DNA of 64,000 nt from the NCBI RefSeq assembly GCF_900215295.1, contig NZ_OCMF01000002.1:310001-374000 (forward strand). The letters run 5' to 3'. Source of the stretch: Salinimicrobium sediminis. GTDB taxonomy: Bacteria; Bacteroidota; Bacteroidia; Flavobacteriales; Flavobacteriaceae. Positions within the stretch are counted from its first letter, which is position 1; every line of letters begins with the position of its first letter. Below the pieces are notes generated by a model that was not told where the DNA came from, did not search any database, and saw nothing but the letters and a program-made list of their open reading frames with translations. The position numbers and the translations under genes are program-made. Below are positions 35,273 through 57,205 of this stretch, one piece after another.

Positions 35273-36529
35273 TTATACAATCATTCCCGCGGCTACGGTT
35301 TCATTAGAGTTTTCATCAATTATTATTATACTGCCGGTAATACGATTATCCCTGTACGAATCCAGCATTAACCTTCTGGTGGTTCGGATCTTCACTCTGG
35401 CAATGTCATTCATCTCTAAATTGGAATCTTCACTATCTCTTTCAAACGTGTTAATATTCATCTTATAAATCACCTCCTTGATAATTGCACGTTCTTCATT
35501 GGAAGTATGCACGATAGTATATTTAGCGCGCGGGTTCATAGCATCGTTGTTTAACCAGCACAGCATTACATCGAACTCCTGCTCCTGCTCAGGTTGGTTA
35601 TTCTTCTTAACGATCATGTCACCCCTGCTTACATCAATGTCATCCTCAAGAGTTATTGCGACAGACATGGGGGCATATGCCTCTTCCACTTCCTTCTCCC
35701 CGGCATTGATCGATCTGATCTTTGAAGTAAATCCAGATGGTAGGACTGCTACTTCATCTCCAGTTCGATAAATACCACTTGCAATCCTTCCGGCATACCC
35801 CCTGTAATCCCTATACCTATCACTCTGCGGTCGTAATACGGTCTGTACAGGAAAACGTGCATCGATCTTATTGATATCACTGCTGATATGCAGATTTTCA
35901 AGAGTACTTAGAAGCGTTCCGTTTTGGTACCAAGCCATGTTCTCTGATTTGTTTACCACATTATCCCCTTTTAATGCACTAATAGGTATAAATCTTACAT
36001 CCTTCATCAATAGCTTGGAAGAAAACTCTTCGAACTGTATTATTATATTATTATATACTTCTTCTGAAAAATCAACCAGGTCCATTTTGTTGACACAAAC
36101 GATTAGGTGAGGAATATTCAATAAAGATGCAATAAAAGAATGCCGTTTTGTTTGCTCAATTACCCCATGACGAGCATCAATTAAGATCACTGCAGCATTA
36201 GCCGTGGAAGCTCCCGTAACCATATTTCGTGTATATTGGATATGCCCGGGGGTATCTGCAATAATGAATTTACGTTTAGGAGTGGTGAAGTAACGATATG
36301 CTACATCTATAGTTATCCCCTGCTCTCTTTCATCTTTCAAACCATCGGTAAAGAGGGCTAGATCGACCCCATCATGGCCTTTTTTTGCACTGGTAGCACT
36401 TACCGACTCCAACTGGTCCTCAAAAATGGATTTAGAGTCGTATAAAAGTCGACCTATCAAGGTTGACTTGCCGTCATCTACTGATCCGGCAGTTGTGAAG
36501 CGTAGTAGTTGGTTGTTATTAATTTCCAT
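35273..36529 (-). CDS. cysN: Sulfate adenylyltransferase subunit 1 (GTPase), copy 1
   Basis: A 418-residue EF-Tu-like GTPase: Walker A GSVDDGKSTLIGRLL (16-30), DTPGH (G3) and NKMDL (G4), then two beta-barrel domains. It has no fused APS kinase. It couples GTP hydrolysis to APS formation by CysD. It is 11 bp downstream of cysD with nothing between, in contrast to copy 2. It ends in ETVAAGMIV. Confidence 0.95.
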   Translation of the reverse strand: MEINNNQLLRFTTAGSVDDGKSTLIGRLLYDSKSIFEDQLESVSATSAKKGHDGVDLALFTDGLKDEREQGITIDVAYRYFTTPKRKFIIADTPGHIQYTRNMVTGASTANAAVILIDARHGVIEQTKRHSFIASLLNIPHLIVCVNKMDLVDFSEEVYNNIIIQFEEFSSKLLMKDVRFIPISALKGDNVVNKSENMAWYQNGTLLSTLENLHISSDINKIDARFPVQTVLRPQSDRYRDYRGYAGRIASGIYRTGDEVAVLPSGFTSKIRSINAGEKEVEEAYAPMSVAITLEDDIDVSRGDMIVKKNNQPEQEQEFDVMLCWLNNDAMNPRAKYTIVHTSNEERAIIKEVIYKMNINTFERDSEDSNLEMNDIARVKIRTTRRLMLDSYRDNRITGSIIIIDENSNETVAAGMIV

Positions 36530-36540
36530 AGATTCTAATT

Positions 36541-37446
36541 CTAAAAATATCCTTGTTTTTTTCGATCTTCCATTGCAGTTTCAGAACGCTTATCATCAGA
36601 ACGATCACCCCTTTCGGTTTTCCGCATGGCTGAAACTTCCTGAACGATCTTTTCCAGGGTGTCAGCATCTGACTCTATTCCCCCCGTGATAGTAATATCT
36701 CCTAAAGTTCTGAAACGAATCTTTTTCTTCTCTATATTCTCTCCTTCTTCCAGCCTCAAATATTCTGAAACGGGGATCCAGGAATTACTTCTGAATACCA
36801 CTTTCCTTTCATGGGCAAAATACAAAGATGGAATTTTGATGTTTTCTCTTTTGATATAATTCCAGACGTCCATTTCTGTCCAGTTACTAATTGGGAAGGC
36901 CCTGAAATGCTCCCCTTCGAAATGTTTTCCATTCAGGAGATTCCAAAGTTCCGGTCTTTGGTTCTTAGGATCCCACTGGCCGAAGTCATCCCTATGGGAG
37001 AAGAACCTTTCTTTTGCACGGGCTTTCTCTTCATCTCTTCGGCCTCCCCCGATCGCACAATCAATTTTATTTTCTTCAATAGCATCTAGGAGGGTTGTGA
37101 TTTGTAATGCGTTACGGGTTGCGTTCTTTCCTTTTTCCTCTGCTACACGACCACTATTAATGGATTCCTGAACCGAACCTACGATCAATTTTACACCCAA
37201 TTCCTTTATCAGATCATCCCTGAATTTTATCGTTTCGGGAAAATTATGACCAGTATCCACATGCATGAGCGCAAAAGGTATTTTCGATGGAAAAAATGCT
37301 TTTTTAGCTAAATGGGTAACGAGAATCGAATCCTTACCCCCGGAAAATAGAATGACAGGATTTTCAAATTGAGCCCACACTTCCCGAAGAATATAAATGG
37401 CCTCAGATTCTAACTCATCCAGGTAGTTCAAATAATATTTACTCAT
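36541..37446 (-). CDS. cysD: Sulfate adenylyltransferase subunit 2, copy 1
   Basis: A 301-residue ATP-pyrophosphatase-fold enzyme with SGGKDS (about 34-39) and HVDTGHNFPET, making APS from sulfate and ATP with CysN. GGGRRDEEKARAKERFFSHR is the conserved CysD block. It overlaps cysC by 8 bp, an overlap repeated exactly in copy 2. Confidence 0.95.
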   Translation of the reverse strand: MSKYYLNYLDELESEAIYILREVWAQFENPVILFSGGKDSILVTHLAKKAFFPSKIPFALMHVDTGHNFPETIKFRDDLIKELGVKLIVGSVQESINSGRVAEEKGKNATRNALQITTLLDAIEENKIDCAIGGGRRDEEKARAKERFFSHRDDFGQWDPKNQRPELWNLLNGKHFEGEHFRAFPISNWTEMDVWNYIKRENIKIPSLYFAHERKVVFRSNSWIPVSEYLRLEEGENIEKKKIRFRTLGDITITGGIESDADTLEKIVQEVSAMRKTERGDRSDDKRSETAMEDRKKQGYF

Positions 37447-38038
37447 TGTATTTCAATTTTTCCTTTAAAACTTTAATTACCCTCTCTACTGACTCCTCCA
37501 CGGTTTCCTCCTCTGCCCTTATTTCTACAGCAGGATCTTCTGGAGCTTCATATGGAGAACTGATACCCGTAAAATTTTTGATTTCTCCGGCTCTCGCTTT
37601 CTTGTATAGACCCTTAACATCTCTTTCTTCACATATCTTCAGAGGGGTATTTACAAAGATCTCTACGAAATTATCCTGCCCAATAACCTTCTTAGCCTCT
37701 TCCCGGTCCTTTCTCAATGGGGAAATAAAAGCGGTAATAGTTACCATTCCGGCATCCATAAAAAGTTTGGCCACTTCGGCTATTCTCCTGTTATTTTCCT
37801 TCCTATCCTCAAGAGAGAAAGTCAAATCTCTATTCAGGCCACTGCGCACATTATCACCATCCAAAGAATACGTCCTGATACCGTTCTTAAATAATTCTTT
37901 CTCTAAGTGATTAGCAATGGTAGATTTTCCCGATCCCGAAAGACCGGTAAACCAGATCACGAAGGAATTATGATCATTCTGCCGGTTACGCTCCTGCCGG
38001 GAAATATGATAGTCGTGTTGTGTTATGTTGGAGGACAT
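37439..38038 (-). CDS. cysC: Adenylylsulfate kinase, copy 1
   Basis: A 199-residue APS kinase: Walker A GLSGSGKST (33-41), LDGDNVRSGLNRDL, the lid-region FISPLRKDREEA, and FVNTPLKICEERD. It phosphorylates APS to PAPS for the sulfotransferase downstream. A 200 bp repeat-containing gap separates it from the DUF2061 gene upstream. Confidence 0.95.
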   Translation of the reverse strand: MSSNITQHDYHISRQERNRQNDHNSFVIWFTGLSGSGKSTIANHLEKELFKNGIRTYSLDGDNVRSGLNRDLTFSLEDRKENNRRIAEVAKLFMDAGMVTITAFISPLRKDREEAKKVIGQDNFVEIFVNTPLKICEERDVKGLYKKARAGEIKNFTGISSPYEAPEDPAVEIRAEEETVEESVERVIKVLKEKLKYNE

Positions 38039-38238
38039 TTTTTCGTTAATTCGGTAATTCGTTAATTTGAGAATCCTTAATTCGTATTTTCAAAATTGAT
38101 TAATTTCTTTATGCACAGCTATTGTTGTTCCGTGAACTTCCTAGTATTTTGCTACCTATTCTATCGATCTCATTTGTTCTTACTACTACGATTTAATACC
38201 CTCGTCTCCAAATCACAGGTTCCCTCGTCTAAGTGCCA
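38039..38238. repeat. Repeat-bearing gap between DUF2061 and cysC, copy 1
   Basis: A GTTAATTCG array (about 38044-38086) at the cysC side and a CCCTCGTCTCC-type array (38203-38232) at the DUF2061 side, with unremarkable AT-rich DNA between. No gene. The equivalent gap of copy 2 (47917-48030) holds related arrays. Confidence 0.6.
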
Positions 38239-38706
38239 TCACGTCCCATAGCCTTCTGTAACTTCTGCTACTTCTTTATCTTTTTCTCTGCGATTGGGAA
38301 GTCCAAAGTCGATTTTATACCATGTACGTTCATGGAGATAGTACAAGATCATCTTAGTCACCACCTCTGCAAATCCGATTTGTAAGCCGGTAACAGGATT
38401 CCCCGTGATAATCCATGCCAGAAGCATAGTATCTAATGTGCCTACAACCCTCCAGGAGACAGTTTTTGCAAGATGTCTTTTTTTGCTGTCATCACCATTC
38501 TTTTTAAGACCTAATTTGACTTTGAACCACATTCTTTCATGCAAATAGTAAAAAACCATTTTGGTGATCACTTCTGCAAAGCCAATTTTTAAACCGATAA
38601 AAGCATCTCCCGATATGAACCAAGAAAGTAAAATAGTGTCAATGGTACCAACTATACGCCAGGTGACCGCTTTGGCAATATGTCTTTTATGGGAACTATC
38701 CTTCAT
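38239..38706 (-). CDS. Double DUF2061 membrane protein, copy 1
   Basis: A 155-residue protein made of two DUF2061 units, about 1-65 and 75-140, each with KRHIAK-x-WRIVGT-x-DT then two membrane helices and YYLHERxW. The helices of each unit are LLSWFISGDAFIGLKIGFAE-like. DUF2061 proteins recur beside cysC, cysD and cysN in Bacteroidota; a role in sulfate handling is suspected but unproven. It overlaps cysQ by 11 bp, as in copy 2. Confidence 0.85.
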   Translation of the reverse strand: MKDSSHKRHIAKAVTWRIVGTIDTILLSWFISGDAFIGLKIGFAEVITKMVFYYLHERMWFKVKLGLKKNGDDSKKRHLAKTVSWRVVGTLDTMLLAWIITGNPVTGLQIGFAEVVTKMILYYLHERTWYKIDFGLPNRREKDKEVAEVTEGYGT

Positions 38707-44685: not shown

Positions 44686-45942
44686 TTATAATATCATACC
44701 TGCTGCCACCGTTTCATTTGTATTCTCATCAACGAGAATTATACTTCCAGTATTTCTGTTGTCACGGTAGGAATCAACCATTAAAGGACGAGTACACCTA
44801 ATTTTTACACGAGAGATATCATTCATTTTTAATTCCTTATCCTCAATGATCCTATCGTAGGTATTGATGTCGATTTTATATATGACTTCCTTTATGATTG
44901 CACGCTGCTCATTAGAAGTATGAGTGATAGTATATTTCGCCCTTGGTTTGGCTGCATCATCATTCAGCCAGCAAAGCATTACATCAAACTCCTGGGTAGG
45001 CTCCGGCTGATTATTTAACCTTACTATCATGTCACCCCGACCCACATCTACATCATCTTCAAGGGTCATAGCGATGGACATAGGAGCGTAGGCTTCTTCA
45101 ATTTCTGTTTCGCCTGAATTTATGGATCTTATTTTTGAAGTAAATCCAGATGGCAATACTGCCACTTCATCTCCTACACGGTAGATTCCGCTGGCCACTC
45201 TTCCCGCATATCCTCTGTAGTCCCGGTGTTCTTCACTTTGAGGTCTTAGCACCGTCTGTACCGGGAAGCGGGCATCAATTTTATTAATATCGCTGCTAAT
45301 ATGCAAAGTCTCCAGTATGTTCAGTAAAGTCCCTCCCTGATACCAATCCATACTCTGTGACCGGTTCACCACGTTATCTCCTTCCAAAGCGCTGATAGGA
45401 ATGAAGCGTACATCCTTCATAAGCAGTTTTGAAGAAAATTCCTCGAATTGTCCAATGATCTCATTGAACCTATCTTCAGAGTAATCCACCAGATCCATTT
45501 TATTGATACAAACAATAAGATGTGGAATGTTCAGCAAAGAAGCGATAAAAGAATGCCTTTTCGTTTGTTCTATCACTCCGTGTCGGGCGTCGATCAAAAT
45601 CACAGCAACATTTGCAGTAGATGCCCCGGTAACCATATTCCTGGTATATTGAATATGCCCCGGAGTATCGGCAATAATGAATTTTCTCTTCGGAGTCGTA
45701 AAGTACCTGTAGGCAACATCAATGGTGATCCCCTGCTCCCTTTCATCCCTTAAACCATCAGTAAACAAAGCGAGATCCACACCTCTGTGTCCTTTTTTTG
45801 CACTCGTGACACTAACGGATTCGAGCTGGTCTTCAAAGATTGATTTTGAGTCGTATAAGAGGCGGCCTATTAAGGTGCTTTTCCCATCATCCACCGAACC
45901 TGCAGTAGTAAATCGTAATAATTGGTTGTTATCTATATGCAT
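44686..45942 (-). CDS. cysN: Sulfate adenylyltransferase subunit 1 (GTPase), copy 2
   Basis: A 418-residue CysN, the same length as copy 1 and very similar along its whole length; GSVDDGKSTLIGRLL, DTPGH and NKMDL are intact. Unlike copy 1 it is separated from its cysD by 479 bp holding the GxxExxY gene. Its 3' end faces the fucosyltransferase genes, with the cysN remnant between. It appears functional. Confidence 0.94.
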   Translation of the reverse strand: MHIDNNQLLRFTTAGSVDDGKSTLIGRLLYDSKSIFEDQLESVSVTSAKKGHRGVDLALFTDGLRDEREQGITIDVAYRYFTTPKRKFIIADTPGHIQYTRNMVTGASTANVAVILIDARHGVIEQTKRHSFIASLLNIPHLIVCINKMDLVDYSEDRFNEIIGQFEEFSSKLLMKDVRFIPISALEGDNVVNRSQSMDWYQGGTLLNILETLHISSDINKIDARFPVQTVLRPQSEEHRDYRGYAGRVASGIYRVGDEVAVLPSGFTSKIRSINSGETEIEEAYAPMSIAMTLEDDVDVGRGDMIVRLNNQPEPTQEFDVMLCWLNDDAAKPRAKYTITHTSNEQRAIIKEVIYKIDINTYDRIIEDKELKMNDISRVKIRCTRPLMVDSYRDNRNTGSIILVDENTNETVAAGMIL

Positions 45943-45970
45943 TATGTCACTAATTATCGCGAATTTATAA

Positions 45971-45985
45971 CGAATTATCGCGAAT
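45971..45985 (+). repeat. Inverted repeat, left arm (15 bp), GxxExxY element
   Basis: CGAATTATCGCGAAT, the exact reverse complement of 46391-46405. A direct copy of its 13 bp core (AATTATCGCGAAT) lies at 45952-45964, so the arm belongs to a short array. Confidence 0.85.
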
Positions 45986-46382
45986 GGGTTGTATTAATAA
46001 TTCTTTTATAGGTTAAGGATGTAGTGCCGAAATTCACAAGAACACCAAGCTCTTTTCGAGTAGCTGCTAAATAGTTATTTAACTGTGAAAGGAAAGCGAC
46101 AGGTATATGTTTAACTGATTTTACTTCCAGAACAATTTTATCATAACAAACAAAATCAGCAATGTAATATTTCTTCAATTTTTGCTCTTTATAAAAAATA
46201 TTCAACTTAACCTGCCGTTCGAAAGGAATTTCTGCATTTTTAAATTCTTGCTCCAGAGCTTCTTCATAAACAGACTCAAGGAAACCGGACCCTAAACCAC
46301 GATGGACTTTCATACATGCTCCAATGATCTTATAGCTTTCCTCTTTATATAAGATTTTACTGTCGGACTCCATTCGTTTCAT
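45975..46382 (-). CDS. GxxExxY family protein (PDDEXK-like fold)
   Basis: A 135-residue protein with GSGFLESVYEEALEQEF, the G-x2-E-x2-Y signature of this family, followed by IADFVCYDKIVLEVKSVKHI, where D…E-x-K matches a PDDEXK nuclease-like core. Its biological role is unknown to me. It lies between cysD and cysN of cassette 2, a pair that is contiguous in cassette 1. The gene is enclosed by perfect 15 bp inverted repeats whose left arm overlaps its 3' end, so it looks like a later insertion. ATG 46382 or 46373 can serve as start. Confidence 0.85.
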   Translation of the reverse strand: MKRMESDSKILYKEESYKIIGACMKVHRGLGSGFLESVYEEALEQEFKNAEIPFERQVKLNIFYKEQKLKKYYIADFVCYDKIVLEVKSVKHIPVAFLSQLNNYLAATRKELGVLVNFGTTSLTYKRIINTTHSR

Positions 46383-46390
46383 TCGCTTTA

Positions 46391-46405
46391 ATTCGCGATA
46401 ATTCG
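46391..46405 (-). repeat. Inverted repeat, right arm (15 bp), GxxExxY element
   Basis: ATTCGCGATAATTCG, the exact reverse complement of 45971-45985, nine bases upstream of the GxxExxY start codon, inside an ATTCG-rich array (46381-46417). Confidence 0.85.
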
Positions 46406-46421
46406 ATTCTTTAATTCGTGA

Positions 46422-47327
46422 TCAGAAGTAGCCCTGGCGCTTCCTATCTTCCATAGCGGTCTCAGAACGTTTATCATCACTCCTATCCCCTCTCTCGGTT
46501 TTTCTCATAGCTGAAACCTCCTGAACGATCTTTTCTAAGGTATCTGCTTCTGATTCTATACCACCAGTGATAGTAATGTCGCCAAGGGTTCGGAAACGGA
46601 TTTTTTTCTTTTGGATTTTCTCCCCTTCTTCCAATCTCAAGAATTCTGAAACCGGTATCCAGGAATTGCTCCTCCAAACTACTTCCCGCTCATGGGCGAT
46701 GTACAGCGAAGGGATTTTTATGTTTTCTCTTTTGATATAATTCCACACATCCATCTCTGTCCAGTTACTGATGGGAAAGGCTCGAAAATGCTCTCCTTCA
46801 AAGTGTTTTCCATTGAGCAAATTCCACAACTCCGGCCGCTGATTTTTTGGATCCCATTCACCGAAGTCGTTCCTATGAGAAAAGAAACGCTCCTTTGCTC
46901 TTGCCTTTTCCTCATCTCTTCTTCCCCCACCAATAGCGCAATCGATCCTGCGCTCCTCAATAGTATCCAATAAGGTTGTTATCTGCAAGGCGTTACGGGT
47001 TGCATTCTTTCCTCTTTCTTCAGCCACTCTTCCGTTATTGATCGAATCTTGCACGGAACCTACAATTAGCTTTACTCCAAGTTCCTTAACCAGATCATCT
47101 CTAAACTGAATGGTTTCTGGAAAATTATGTCCTGTGTCCACATGCAGTAATGCAAAAGGAATTTTAGCAGGATAAAATGCCTTTTTTGCGAGGTGAGTAA
47201 CGAGAATGGAGTCCTTCCCACCTGAAAAAAGGATTACCGGGTTTTCGAACTGGGCCCAGACTTCCCTCAGGATAAATATTGCTTCCGATTCCAGTTCATC
47301 CAGGTAATTCAGAAAATATTTACTCAT
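46422..47327 (-). CDS. cysD: Sulfate adenylyltransferase subunit 2, copy 2
   Basis: A 301-residue CysD, same length as copy 1, with SGGKDS and GGGRRDEEKARAKERFFSHR intact. ATG 47327 was chosen because it reproduces the copy 1 N-terminus (MSKYFLNYLDELESE) and the same 8 bp overlap with cysC; an in-frame extension to 47348 exists. Its stop is followed by the GxxExxY insertion instead of cysN. Confidence 0.94.
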   Translation of the reverse strand: MSKYFLNYLDELESEAIFILREVWAQFENPVILFSGGKDSILVTHLAKKAFYPAKIPFALLHVDTGHNFPETIQFRDDLVKELGVKLIVGSVQDSINNGRVAEERGKNATRNALQITTLLDTIEERRIDCAIGGGRRDEEKARAKERFFSHRNDFGEWDPKNQRPELWNLLNGKHFEGEHFRAFPISNWTEMDVWNYIKRENIKIPSLYIAHEREVVWRSNSWIPVSEFLRLEEGEKIQKKKIRFRTLGDITITGGIESEADTLEKIVQEVSAMRKTERGDRSDDKRSETAMEDRKRQGYF

Positions 47328-47916
47328 GATATAATATTTTTTGTTCAAGGAATTTTAGCAGCCTCTCCACAGATTCCTCTACAGATTCTTCCTCTGTTTT
47401 GATTTCAAAATCGGGAGTTTCAGGTACTTCATAAGGAGCGCTTATTCCAGTAAAATTTTTTATCTCCCCTGCCCTGGCTTTTGCATAGAAACCTTTGACA
47501 TCCCTCTTCTCACAAATTTCAAGAGGCGTGTTTACAAAGATCTCCAGAAAATTCTCCCTTCCAATAATATTTTTTGCTTGGTCCCTATCCTCTTTTAAAG
47601 GAGAAATAAAGGCAGTAATAGTGAGCATTCCTGCATCCATAAATAATTTTGCAACCTCTGAAATCCTCCTGTTGTTCTCAAACCGATCTTCTCTGGAAAA
47701 TCCAAGCCCTTTATTGAGTCCGCTGCGAATGTTGTCTCCGTCCAAAGCATAGGTCTGAACGCCCTGCTTAAATAGCCGTTCTTCGAGCTTACTTGCAATT
47801 GTAGACTTTCCTGAACCTGACAAACCGGTAAACCAAAGTACAAGAGAAGTATGACCGTTTTTTTTGCTGCGATCTTCCCTGGAAATATGGTATTTGTGTT
47901 TTATAATGTTGGGCAT
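47320..47916 (-). CDS. cysC: Adenylylsulfate kinase, copy 2
   Basis: A 198-residue APS kinase with GLSGSGKST, LDGDNIRSGLNKGL and FISPLKEDRDQA intact. It is visibly more diverged from copy 1 than the cysN and cysD pairs are. Makes PAPS from APS. Confidence 0.94.
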   Translation of the reverse strand: MPNIIKHKYHISREDRSKKNGHTSLVLWFTGLSGSGKSTIASKLEERLFKQGVQTYALDGDNIRSGLNKGLGFSREDRFENNRRISEVAKLFMDAGMLTITAFISPLKEDRDQAKNIIGRENFLEIFVNTPLEICEKRDVKGFYAKARAGEIKNFTGISAPYEVPETPDFEIKTEEESVEESVERLLKFLEQKILYHE

Positions 47917-47924
47917 TGTTTTTC

Positions 47925-47990
47925 GTTAATTCGGGATTGGTTAATTCGTTAATCTGAGATTGGTAATTAGTTAATTAGTGATTTATTAAT
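47925..47990. repeat. GTTAATTSGGGATTGGTTAA array, DUF2061-cysC gap of copy 2
   Basis: GTTAATTCGGGATTGGTTAA at 47925-47944 matches 19 of 20 bases of 50825-50844, and decayed units (GTTAATCTG, GTAATTAGTTAATTAGTGATT) follow. This is the clearest dispersed copy of the unit that forms the inverted repeat around the four-helix-bundle gene. Confidence 0.75.
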
Positions 47991-48030
47991 CAGAACTGCT
48001 CTTCGTATGTCTAACTTCGTAAATCTAACT

Positions 48031-48495
48031 TCAATCCACCTGCTCCTTCACTTCTAATACTTCATCAGTTTTGTTTCTCCTTCCCTGAAGTCCGTAATCA
48101 ACTTTGTACCAGGTACGCTCGTGGAGATAATACAAAACCATTTTTGTAATAACCTCTGCTAATCCAATCTTTAATCCGGTAATTGGATTTCCGGTGATGA
48201 TCCAGGCGAGAAGCATGGTATCCATGGTACCTACAATACGCCAGGAAATAGTTTTAGCTATGTGCCGTCTTCTACTGTTCCATTTTCCGGAGGAATGAGA
48301 AAATTCTCCTTTAAACCAGAGTCTTTCGTGAAAGTAATAAAGGATCATTTTTGTAATAACTTCAGCAAAACCAATCTTTAATCCCGTAAAGGGGCTCCCG
48401 GAGATAAGCCAGGCCAGCAGAATAGTATCCAAAGTTCCAACAATCCTCCAGGTAATAGTCTTGGCAATATGTCGCTTATGTGATTTATCCTTCAT
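48031..48495 (-). CDS. Double DUF2061 membrane protein, copy 2
   Basis: A 154-residue protein of two DUF2061 units with the same layout as copy 1 (KRHIAKTITWRIVGTLDT and RRHIAKTISWRIVGTMDT, each followed by two helices and YY-x-HER-x-W). It overlaps cysQ by 11 bp, as in copy 1. Its conservation in both cassettes supports a real role with sulfate activation. Confidence 0.85.
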   Translation of the reverse strand: MKDKSHKRHIAKTITWRIVGTLDTILLAWLISGSPFTGLKIGFAEVITKMILYYFHERLWFKGEFSHSSGKWNSRRRHIAKTISWRIVGTMDTMLLAWIITGNPITGLKIGLAEVITKMVLYYLHERTWYKVDYGLQGRRNKTDEVLEVKEQVD

Positions 48496-50824: not shown

Positions 50825-50841
50825 GTTAATTGGGGATTGGT
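50825..50841 (+). repeat. Inverted repeat, left arm (17 bp), four-helix-bundle element
   Basis: GTTAATTGGGGATTGGT, the exact reverse complement of 51402-51418. It is part of a short array to 50858 and nearly identical to 47925-47941. Confidence 0.85.
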
Positions 50842-50891: not shown

Positions 50892-51260
50892 TTACTCATT
50901 CTGTTTTCTTAAATATTTAATATAACCATTTAACAACCTTATGCAGGAGTCGGTAGTATTTCTTATTTCCGCTAAATTCTCCTTTGTTATATAATTCCAG
51001 GAGTGTGCTTCAAGAGCATGATCTAAAACTTCGGCCACTGATCCACGAGCATTCAGAAGAAATTTGACGTTTTCTTTATAATGATAACGACCCCATCCCT
51101 CCGCAATATTTGCCGTTGCTGAACGGGAAGCCCTCAAAATTTGCGACCGTAAATCGAATTTTTCAGAATCCGGCAAGGCTAGAATAACTTTTTCCTTTAT
51201 AAAAAGTTTAAGTTCAAAACACTTTTTCCAGCACTCCAATTTCTCGAAATTGTCAGCCAT
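50892..51260 (-). CDS. Four-helix-bundle protein (23S rRNA intervening-sequence protein family)
   Basis: A 122-residue protein with the family pattern: FEKLECWKKCFELKLFI, then LRSQILRASRSATANIAEGW with the conserved SATANIAEG-x-GR, then FLLNARGSVAEVLDHA. Members were first seen as ORFs inside 23S rRNA intervening sequences bounded by complementary ends, and relatives serve as Avd in diversity-generating retroelements. Here there is no rRNA and no reverse transcriptase. The gene sits between ugd and the tviB-like gene, within perfect 17 bp inverted repeats. Molecular function unknown. Confidence 0.88.
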   Translation of the reverse strand: MADNFEKLECWKKCFELKLFIKEKVILALPDSEKFDLRSQILRASRSATANIAEGWGRYHYKENVKFLLNARGSVAEVLDHALEAHSWNYITKENLAEIRNTTDSCIRLLNGYIKYLRKQNE

Positions 51261-51401: not shown

Positions 51402-51418
51402 ACCAATCCCCAATTAAC
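51402..51418 (-). repeat. Inverted repeat, right arm (17 bp), four-helix-bundle element
   Basis: ACCAATCCCCAATTAAC, the exact reverse complement of 50825-50841, in an inverted heptad-like array (51361-51432) that reaches the 3' end of the tviB-like gene. Confidence 0.85.
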
Positions 51419-56954: not shown

Positions 56955-57205
56955 TCTTACCATCCTCATAAACCTCATAAAGGCTAAAAAATTATTCATC
57001 GTGAAATTTACCAGGAAATAATAATGGCCTTCTAAAATCCAAACCGATACTCAAACATCTGGGTTGGTAAGGCTCATAGAATTCATTGTTCAGGCAAGAA
57101 ATTTATTCCTGAAAAATCAGGAAAATATTTTAATGTAGAATTTAACAAAATAAAATACCCTTCCAAAAATTATTTGGAAGGGTATTTTTGTTATTGATAA
57201 TTCGG
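56955..57205. other. Convergent intergenic region with bidirectional terminator
   Basis: 251 bp between convergent genes. Nothing recognised in the first 195 bp; the terminator hairpin follows. Confidence 0.6.
57152..57188. terminator. Bidirectional rho-independent terminator
   Basis: A perfect 16 bp stem (AAAATACCCTTCCAAA with TTTGGAAGGGTATTTT) and 5-base loop, giving U-runs in both directions. It serves mscS on the plus strand and the phosphoesterase gene on the minus strand. Confidence 0.92.

Follow-up and report, generated by a model that had tools for sequence, protein, structure and literature searches.

GxxExxY genes as probable enzyme partners of an interspersed family of short word arrays

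GxxExxY genes form a widespread family for which we know of no function, and our search of the open-access PMC literature found neither a role for them nor an account of the repeats described here. We think it probable that these genes are the enzyme partners of an interspersed repeat family, in an arrangement like that of REP sequences and RAYT genes with an unrelated nuclease as the enzyme; the binding, cutting, and movement of the repeats by that enzyme are what we infer. The repeat unit would be an array of words, each about seven bases long and as a rule present in two to four copies. The word types would be CRCRRAG, CACNRAT, CGGATT, and CGAATT, with a step from copy to copy of mostly 8 to 11 bp. 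A gene-bearing element would then be a GxxExxY gene flanked by two inverted arrays, and arrays lacking the gene, whether single or paired, would be its nonautonomous copies. An interspersed repeat of this kind would give GxxExxY proteins a testable substrate and would account for a repeat that is common in environmental genomes.

The insert between cysD and cysN

The window (the whole 64-kb stretch of DNA that was analyzed) contains two paralogous cysN-cysD cassettes with their neighbors, at 35273 to 38706 and 44686 to 48495; another genome of the genus, G105, has three cysD copies. The features discussed below are as follows.

36530 to 36540, no strand: cysD-cysN junction of cassette 1 (L076), 11 bp, without the element
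44686 to 45942, minus strand: cysN of cassette 2
45943 to 46421, minus strand: whole insert of cassette 2, 479 bp from the cysD stop codon to the cysN start codon
45948 to 45985, no strand: 3'-side word array, with the plus-strand words CACTAATT, CGCGAATT, ACGAATT, and CGCGAAT, in direct and inverted repeats
45971 to 45985, no strand: copy of the 15-bp repeat, from the repeat search and shuffle test
45975 to 46382, minus strand: GxxExxY (PDDEXK_3) gene, 135 codons, from profile matches, a structure model, and PDB fold matches
46375 to 46422, no strand: 5'-side word array, with the words CACGAATT, TCGAATT, CGCGAATT, GCGAATG, and ACGAATG in gene sense
46391 to 46405, no strand: inverse copy of the 15-bp repeat, from the repeat search
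46422 to 47348, minus strand: cysD of cassette 2
50825 to 50841 and 51402 to 51418: 17-bp inverted repeat of TTAATTGG-type words around a four-helix-bundle gene

As the initial annotation reported, the GxxExxY gene that separates cysD from cysN in cassette 2 is enclosed by a perfect 15-bp inverted repeat (CGAATTATCGCGAAT at 45971 to 45985, with its exact inverse at 46391 to 46405), and in cassette 1 the two genes are 11 bp apart. In cassette 2 the gap is 479 bp. The 15-bp copies are exact, but these coordinates are too narrow for the arms: the repeat is the core of two longer arrays of a short word, CGAATT at this locus, at about 45948 to 45985 and 46375 to 46422 (the words were read by eye from the sequence; the repeats came from the repeat search). 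The 5'-side array reaches the cysD stop codon, and the 3'-side array stops 5 bases short of the cysN start codon. The predicted start codon of the GxxExxY gene lies within the 5' array, and its stop codon lies within the 3' array. When both flanks were dinucleotide shuffled, a perfect 15-bp inverted repeat arose in 0 of 5000 shuffles, the longest being 14 bp. Perfect inverted pairs of 15-mers with a gap of ≤800 bp occur at only three places in the window: the GxxExxY locus, the 17-bp pair around the four-helix-bundle gene, and a short hairpin at 57152. This hairpin (57152 to 57188) has perfect arms of about 16 bp and is terminator-like by look only.

The open reading frame (ORF) in the insert matches TIGR04256 (GxxExxY) with 137.9 bits (cut-off, 35) and PF13366 (PDDEXK_3) with 130.8 bits (cut-off, 22). 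These are its only matches among the Pfam and NCBIfam profiles at E values up to 0.001, with no match to an HUH tyrosine transposase, and the insert holds no second ORF of ≥80 amino acids. The insert thus encodes no transposase or recombinase, as had been noted.

To follow the junction in relatives, we surveyed 12 genomes of the genus, 10 of which gave 15 cysD-cysN junctions. Six junctions were filled and nine were empty, and all six filled ones carried word arrays (CGAATT in four, CGGATT in two). The proposal that the insert is mobile is supported by this mixture, and the pattern that had been named as contrary to it, a gene without repeats in most of the relatives' cysD-cysN pairs, was not found. 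On a tree of the cysDN sequences, the well-supported branches require at least four changes between the filled and empty states. Two of the filled junctions, L068 and L077, have element genes that are 87.7% identical, versus 77.9% for cysD and for cysN. Identity adjoining the element is hardly raised (78% in cysD and 83% in cysN). When L068 is compared with the junction in the window (L066), the values are 82.0% for cysD, 85.5% for cysN, and 66.6% for the element gene. One version of the element therefore occupies one junction in two different cysDN backgrounds. Because this version is more alike than the genes around it, it appears either to have reached the same junction twice or to have been exchanged in a short recombination tract; ordinary recombination could account for an exchange.

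Cassette 1 had been offered as a clean empty-site control. Its sister in the cysDN tree, L077, carries the element, so cassette 1 alone cannot settle insertion versus loss, and its empty state may be either original or a loss. The suggested comparison of junctions for a target-site duplication gave none readable by eye at the 15 junctions. Nor does a single insertion describe the locus well, since word arrays of the kind that forms the arms are numerous also without the gene. The GxxExxY gene of L068 (the G109 cysD-cysN junction) has an in-frame stop codon, which suggests that elements decay in place.

Between ftsX and a neighbor gene that we take to be DUF3098, the GxxExxY gene is present in the genome from which the window comes (the source genome) and in G108. 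Four genomes (G101, G109, G007, and G104) have two arms without a full gene. Among the other genomes, one arm has left traces in two, no clear arm is seen in three, and a contig end cuts one (all states were sorted by eye). At this site the gene was lost and the arms stayed. The FtsX protein of G101 is 99% identical to that of the source genome, so the loss with retention of the arms is recent in G101.

Word arrays with and without the gene

The source genome has three GxxExxY genes, each lying between inverted arrays of its own word: CGAATT in the window, CGCAAAG at L001, and CACAGATG at L003. It had been suggested that GxxExxY genes be tested for flanking inverted repeats against other genes, and this comparison bore out the association. 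We used the 80 loci that, among the matches listed, were most like a CRCRRAG-type subset; they represent that group rather than the whole family, and they come from Bacteroidota and several other phyla, including many metagenome bins, some of which may be misbinned. Enough flank for scoring was available at 75 loci, and the control consisted of 154 other ORFs from the same loci. The median arm score was 15.5 for the GxxExxY genes versus 8.5 for the control ORFs (P = 2e-18). Scores exceeded the control 95th percentile at 51 of 75 loci and the control maximum at 10; the remaining 24 fell short of the 95th percentile. At 30 family-level loci the median of 13.5 was above both the shuffle value of 8.25 (P = 5e-7) and the value of 9.0 from 19 control ORFs (P = 4e-5).

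Two other measures were discarded. Shuffling flanks between loci put no locus above the 99th percentile, but it is a bad control because the same words recur at different loci and some pairs are homologous; it was replaced by same-locus ORFs and shuffles. The number of loci whose two arms had 6-mers in common, 66 of 75, was uncontrolled and was set aside.

Word class follows the protein. The GxxExxY protein tree requires 7 changes of word class, versus a mean of 15.4 when labels were shuffled, and none of 200 shuffles gave a number as low (classes were assigned by eye for 29 of 32 loci). It is thus the gene clade that the word goes with, not the genome.

Elements of this type are also carried on plasmids, in 8 of 72,556 plasmid records. 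In a Bacteroides finegoldii plasmid, the gene (WP_032839887.1) lies between radA and a gene for an FAD protein, and its arms hold CACAGAG, CGCAGAG, and CACGGAG words. One locus was found in IMG/VR, where the search patterns covered no more than close relatives of the CRCRRAG-type group, and 50,697 phage records gave no GxxExxY element. Pairs of GxxExxY genes on the same strand, a few hundred bases apart, occur at G305:C1:3199652-3200531 and G201:C4:68683-69764 and are perhaps tandem copies of the element.

We then counted arrays irrespective of the gene with the pattern CRCRRAG-NNN-CRCRRAG, which finds AG-type words alone; the backward pattern was the control. Within the family, the same 100 genomes were used for the array count and the gene search: 23 genomes with the gene had 137 array pairs (control, 9), and 77 without it had 14 (control, 29). 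Across the phylum (247 genomes), 122 with the gene had 1062 pairs (control, 103), and 125 without it had 211 (control, 218). GxxExxY scored above the profile cut-off in 120 of these 247 genomes. An excess of at least five AG-type pairs was present in 45 of the 122 gene-bearing phylum genomes versus 2 of the 125 without the gene, uncorrected for kinship; the 45 span 15 families by our count by eye. The other 77 gene-bearing genomes lack such an excess, by a pattern that covers one word type. Outside Bacteroidota, 11 of 14 genomes, all chosen for presence of the gene, had a more than threefold array excess (for example, 232 versus 3 in the genome of L159, 160 versus 6 in that of L134, and 145 versus 5 in that of L136); the exceptions were 20 versus 18 (L138), 3 versus 7 (L153), and 16 versus 15 (L130).

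Another word type, CACDRAT-N-CACDRAT, occurs 237 times in the 12 genomes of the genus (control, 3) and 17 times in the source genome (control, 0); within this set, the search for the GxxExxY family covered 2 genomes (the source genome and G007). A genome-wide repeat of the enzyme-flanking type is therefore present, while the window's own word, searched for in one form (AATTCGCGNNAATT), was found in the source genome at the window locus only.

That the AG-type excess occurs almost only with GxxExxY points to the nuclease as the mover. Arrays might instead be spread by another enzyme, such as a RAYT-type transposase encoded at another place in the genome, with GxxExxY as a passenger between them. 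There is precedent in RAYT and the related TIRYT genes, which are flanked by repeats or inverted ends of genome-wide families (PMC3733652), and 40 array regions from four gene-bearing genomes held no GxxExxY remnant. We nevertheless consider a passenger role unlikely, given the 45-versus-2 difference just described and the agreement between word and GxxExxY tree, since no match with the word would be expected of a passenger.

The absence of gene remnants weighs differently on a homing-type element, in which the nuclease would cut an empty junction, repair would copy the element in, and the scattered arrays would be relics of lost elements. One cysD-cysN junction filled several times or exchanged, and arms that persist at ftsX after gene loss, would fit such homing. 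It is made very unlikely by the lack of remnants in those 40 regions and by arrays far in excess of genes: G084 has 33 array pairs and one GxxExxY gene. A solo array compared across six genomes of G084's genus was present in G084, decayed in G357, and absent in four; no exact empty site was found among the six, and the downstream flanks differ.

Among 53 arrays of at least three words, 17 were single, 29 had an inverted neighbor, and 7 had only a direct neighbor (within 600 bp). In the array regions, 123 of 184 steps from word to word were of 10 bp; in gene arms, 9 bp was the commonest (96 of 242).

These arrangements bear on whether the arms act in RNA. An intervening sequence (IVS) like those that encode S23 proteins would have arms that pair in the transcript and a stem that RNase III cuts, so that the insert is tolerated in operons. 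The model is the Coxiella IVS, in which terminal inverted repeats with tandem heptamers flank an S23-protein ORF and which RNase III excises (PMC4990558), and the window element does sit in the cysD-cysN operon, in the same direction as the operon. Against this stand the mismatches in the arms of 86 loci, which show no preference for G.U (153 G.U versus 192 A.C), the 17 of 53 arrays with no neighbor within 600 bp, and the L001 gene, which runs against the direction of its msrA-like neighbor. We regard an RNA-level element as quite unlikely.

Two further repeats were seen in passing. L288 (G102:C3:83500-85700) contains, at 262 to 1654, about 11 units of 124 bp in tandem, and nearly every unit has the word CACGAATGCACGAAT in the same direction. 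A PCR primer near an invertible promoter of the Bacteroides fragilis capsule, published in PMC3090145, contains CTCTGTGTTCTCTGTG, which is two AG-type words.

The predicted nuclease and its action

Nine residues are invariant in 52 GxxExxY sequences: G33, L35, E36, D76, E86, K88, Q100, N117, and R127. We take the conserved residues to form the motifs named D, ExK, and QxxxY. The AlphaFold2 model of the window protein has a mean pLDDT of 91.3. In a Foldseek search of the PDB, the best matches were four chains of 4ic1 (E = 3.4e-5 to 1.2e-4), which we take to be SSO0001, a Cas4. The next matches (E = 0.002 to 0.01) were the Argonaute-associated Cas4-family protein ACE1, lambda exonuclease, LHK-Exo, and RecE. 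By sequence, no PDB entry was related to the window protein at an E value below 0.7. The protein is thus predicted to have a PD-(D/E)XK fold, nearest to that of Cas4, and both the D and ExK residues and the fold expected of such a nuclease are present. Cas4 proteins have four conserved iron-sulfur cysteines, whereas two cysteines are present in the window protein and none of the alignment columns of the 52 sequences is a constant or nearly constant cysteine. The dN/dS ratio of element genes was 0.06 for L066-L067 and also 0.06 for L066-L074, where synonymous sites are near saturation; two further pairs were saturated.

Such a nuclease might serve its host, with the arrays as chromosomal sites for DNA end processing, repair, or defense rather than mobile DNA. 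In G084 regions, 16 of 18 arrays lie outside open frames of ≥90 codons, the solo-array spacing is near a helical turn, and end-processing nucleases are among the fold relatives, all of which would suit a host function. Mobile DNA is suggested instead by a patchy distribution, by words that differ within one genome, by the exchange at cysDN, and by the relic arms at ftsX, and the PADLOC matches are partial and low scoring, at 20.7 and 19.4 bits. We hold a host function to be highly improbable.

A simple transposon was also considered and dropped, because there is no transposase between the arms, no target duplication is readable, and many arrays lack the gene. Recognition of arrays in DNA by the nuclease is favored by the fold, by the 10- to 11-bp step in solo arrays, and by arm mismatches that are not biased toward G.U. 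We propose that the GxxExxY protein, as a minimal Cas4-like PD-(D/E)XK nuclease, would bind the word array in DNA and cut at or near it. Repair or recombination would then copy or move the array, as is supposed for RAYT and REP; cutting followed by repair-driven spread is suggested by analogy with these (PMC3116915 and PMC3733652).

Comparison with known systems

The window has a second gene in a similar setting, a four-helix-bundle gene (TIGR02436/PF05635) at 50892 to 51260 within the 17-bp perfect inverted repeat. The source genome has 10 such genes. At 30 four-helix-bundle loci the median arm score was 13.5; shuffled flanks scored 8.5 (P = 3e-10), and the control ORFs, of which there were only 9, scored 8.0 (P = 8e-6). 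The two families thus seem to ride similar elements. S23 belongs to the same four-helix-bundle family, PF05635. Our broadest reading is tentative, and we would not put it as high as an even chance: minimal Cas4-like GxxExxY proteins read and spread word arrays across many phyla, protein and word coevolving, with four-helix-bundle proteins in a parallel element of which the 23S IVS is a special case. Word-array elements could then provide a frame for the origin of 23S rRNA intervening sequences. Like the window element, the 23S rRNA IVS with S23 has one small gene flanked by terminal inverted repeats (PMC4990558); the window element differs in lying in a protein operon, cysD-cysN, in encoding GxxExxY, and in having no RNA-pairing signal in its arms.

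Members of the Cas4/lambda-exonuclease branch are the best fold matches of GxxExxY, in which the D, ExK, and QxxxY residues are conserved; unlike them, GxxExxY proteins have about 120 residues and no conserved cysteines, and their genes are repeat flanked. MITEs and their parent transposons share inverted ends and internally deleted forms with GxxExxY elements, whereas 17 of the 53 arrays have no neighbor array, the window element has no known transposase between its arms, and no target duplication was seen.

The closest parallel is with REP/REPIN sequences and RAYT genes (REPtrons and TIRtrons). REPs are short repeats that lie mostly outside genes, either alone or as inverted pairs; RAYT genes lie between inverted repeat copies, and the enzyme and repeat types are thought to coevolve (PMC3116915 and PMC3733652). 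The GxxExxY system likewise has interspersed repeats and an enzyme gene between inverted copies. Its enzyme is a predicted PD-(D/E)XK nuclease whereas RAYT is an HUH enzyme, and its unit is an array of direct words whereas the REP unit is a palindrome. If our reading is true, the REP/RAYT lifestyle arose also with an unrelated, Cas4-like nuclease.
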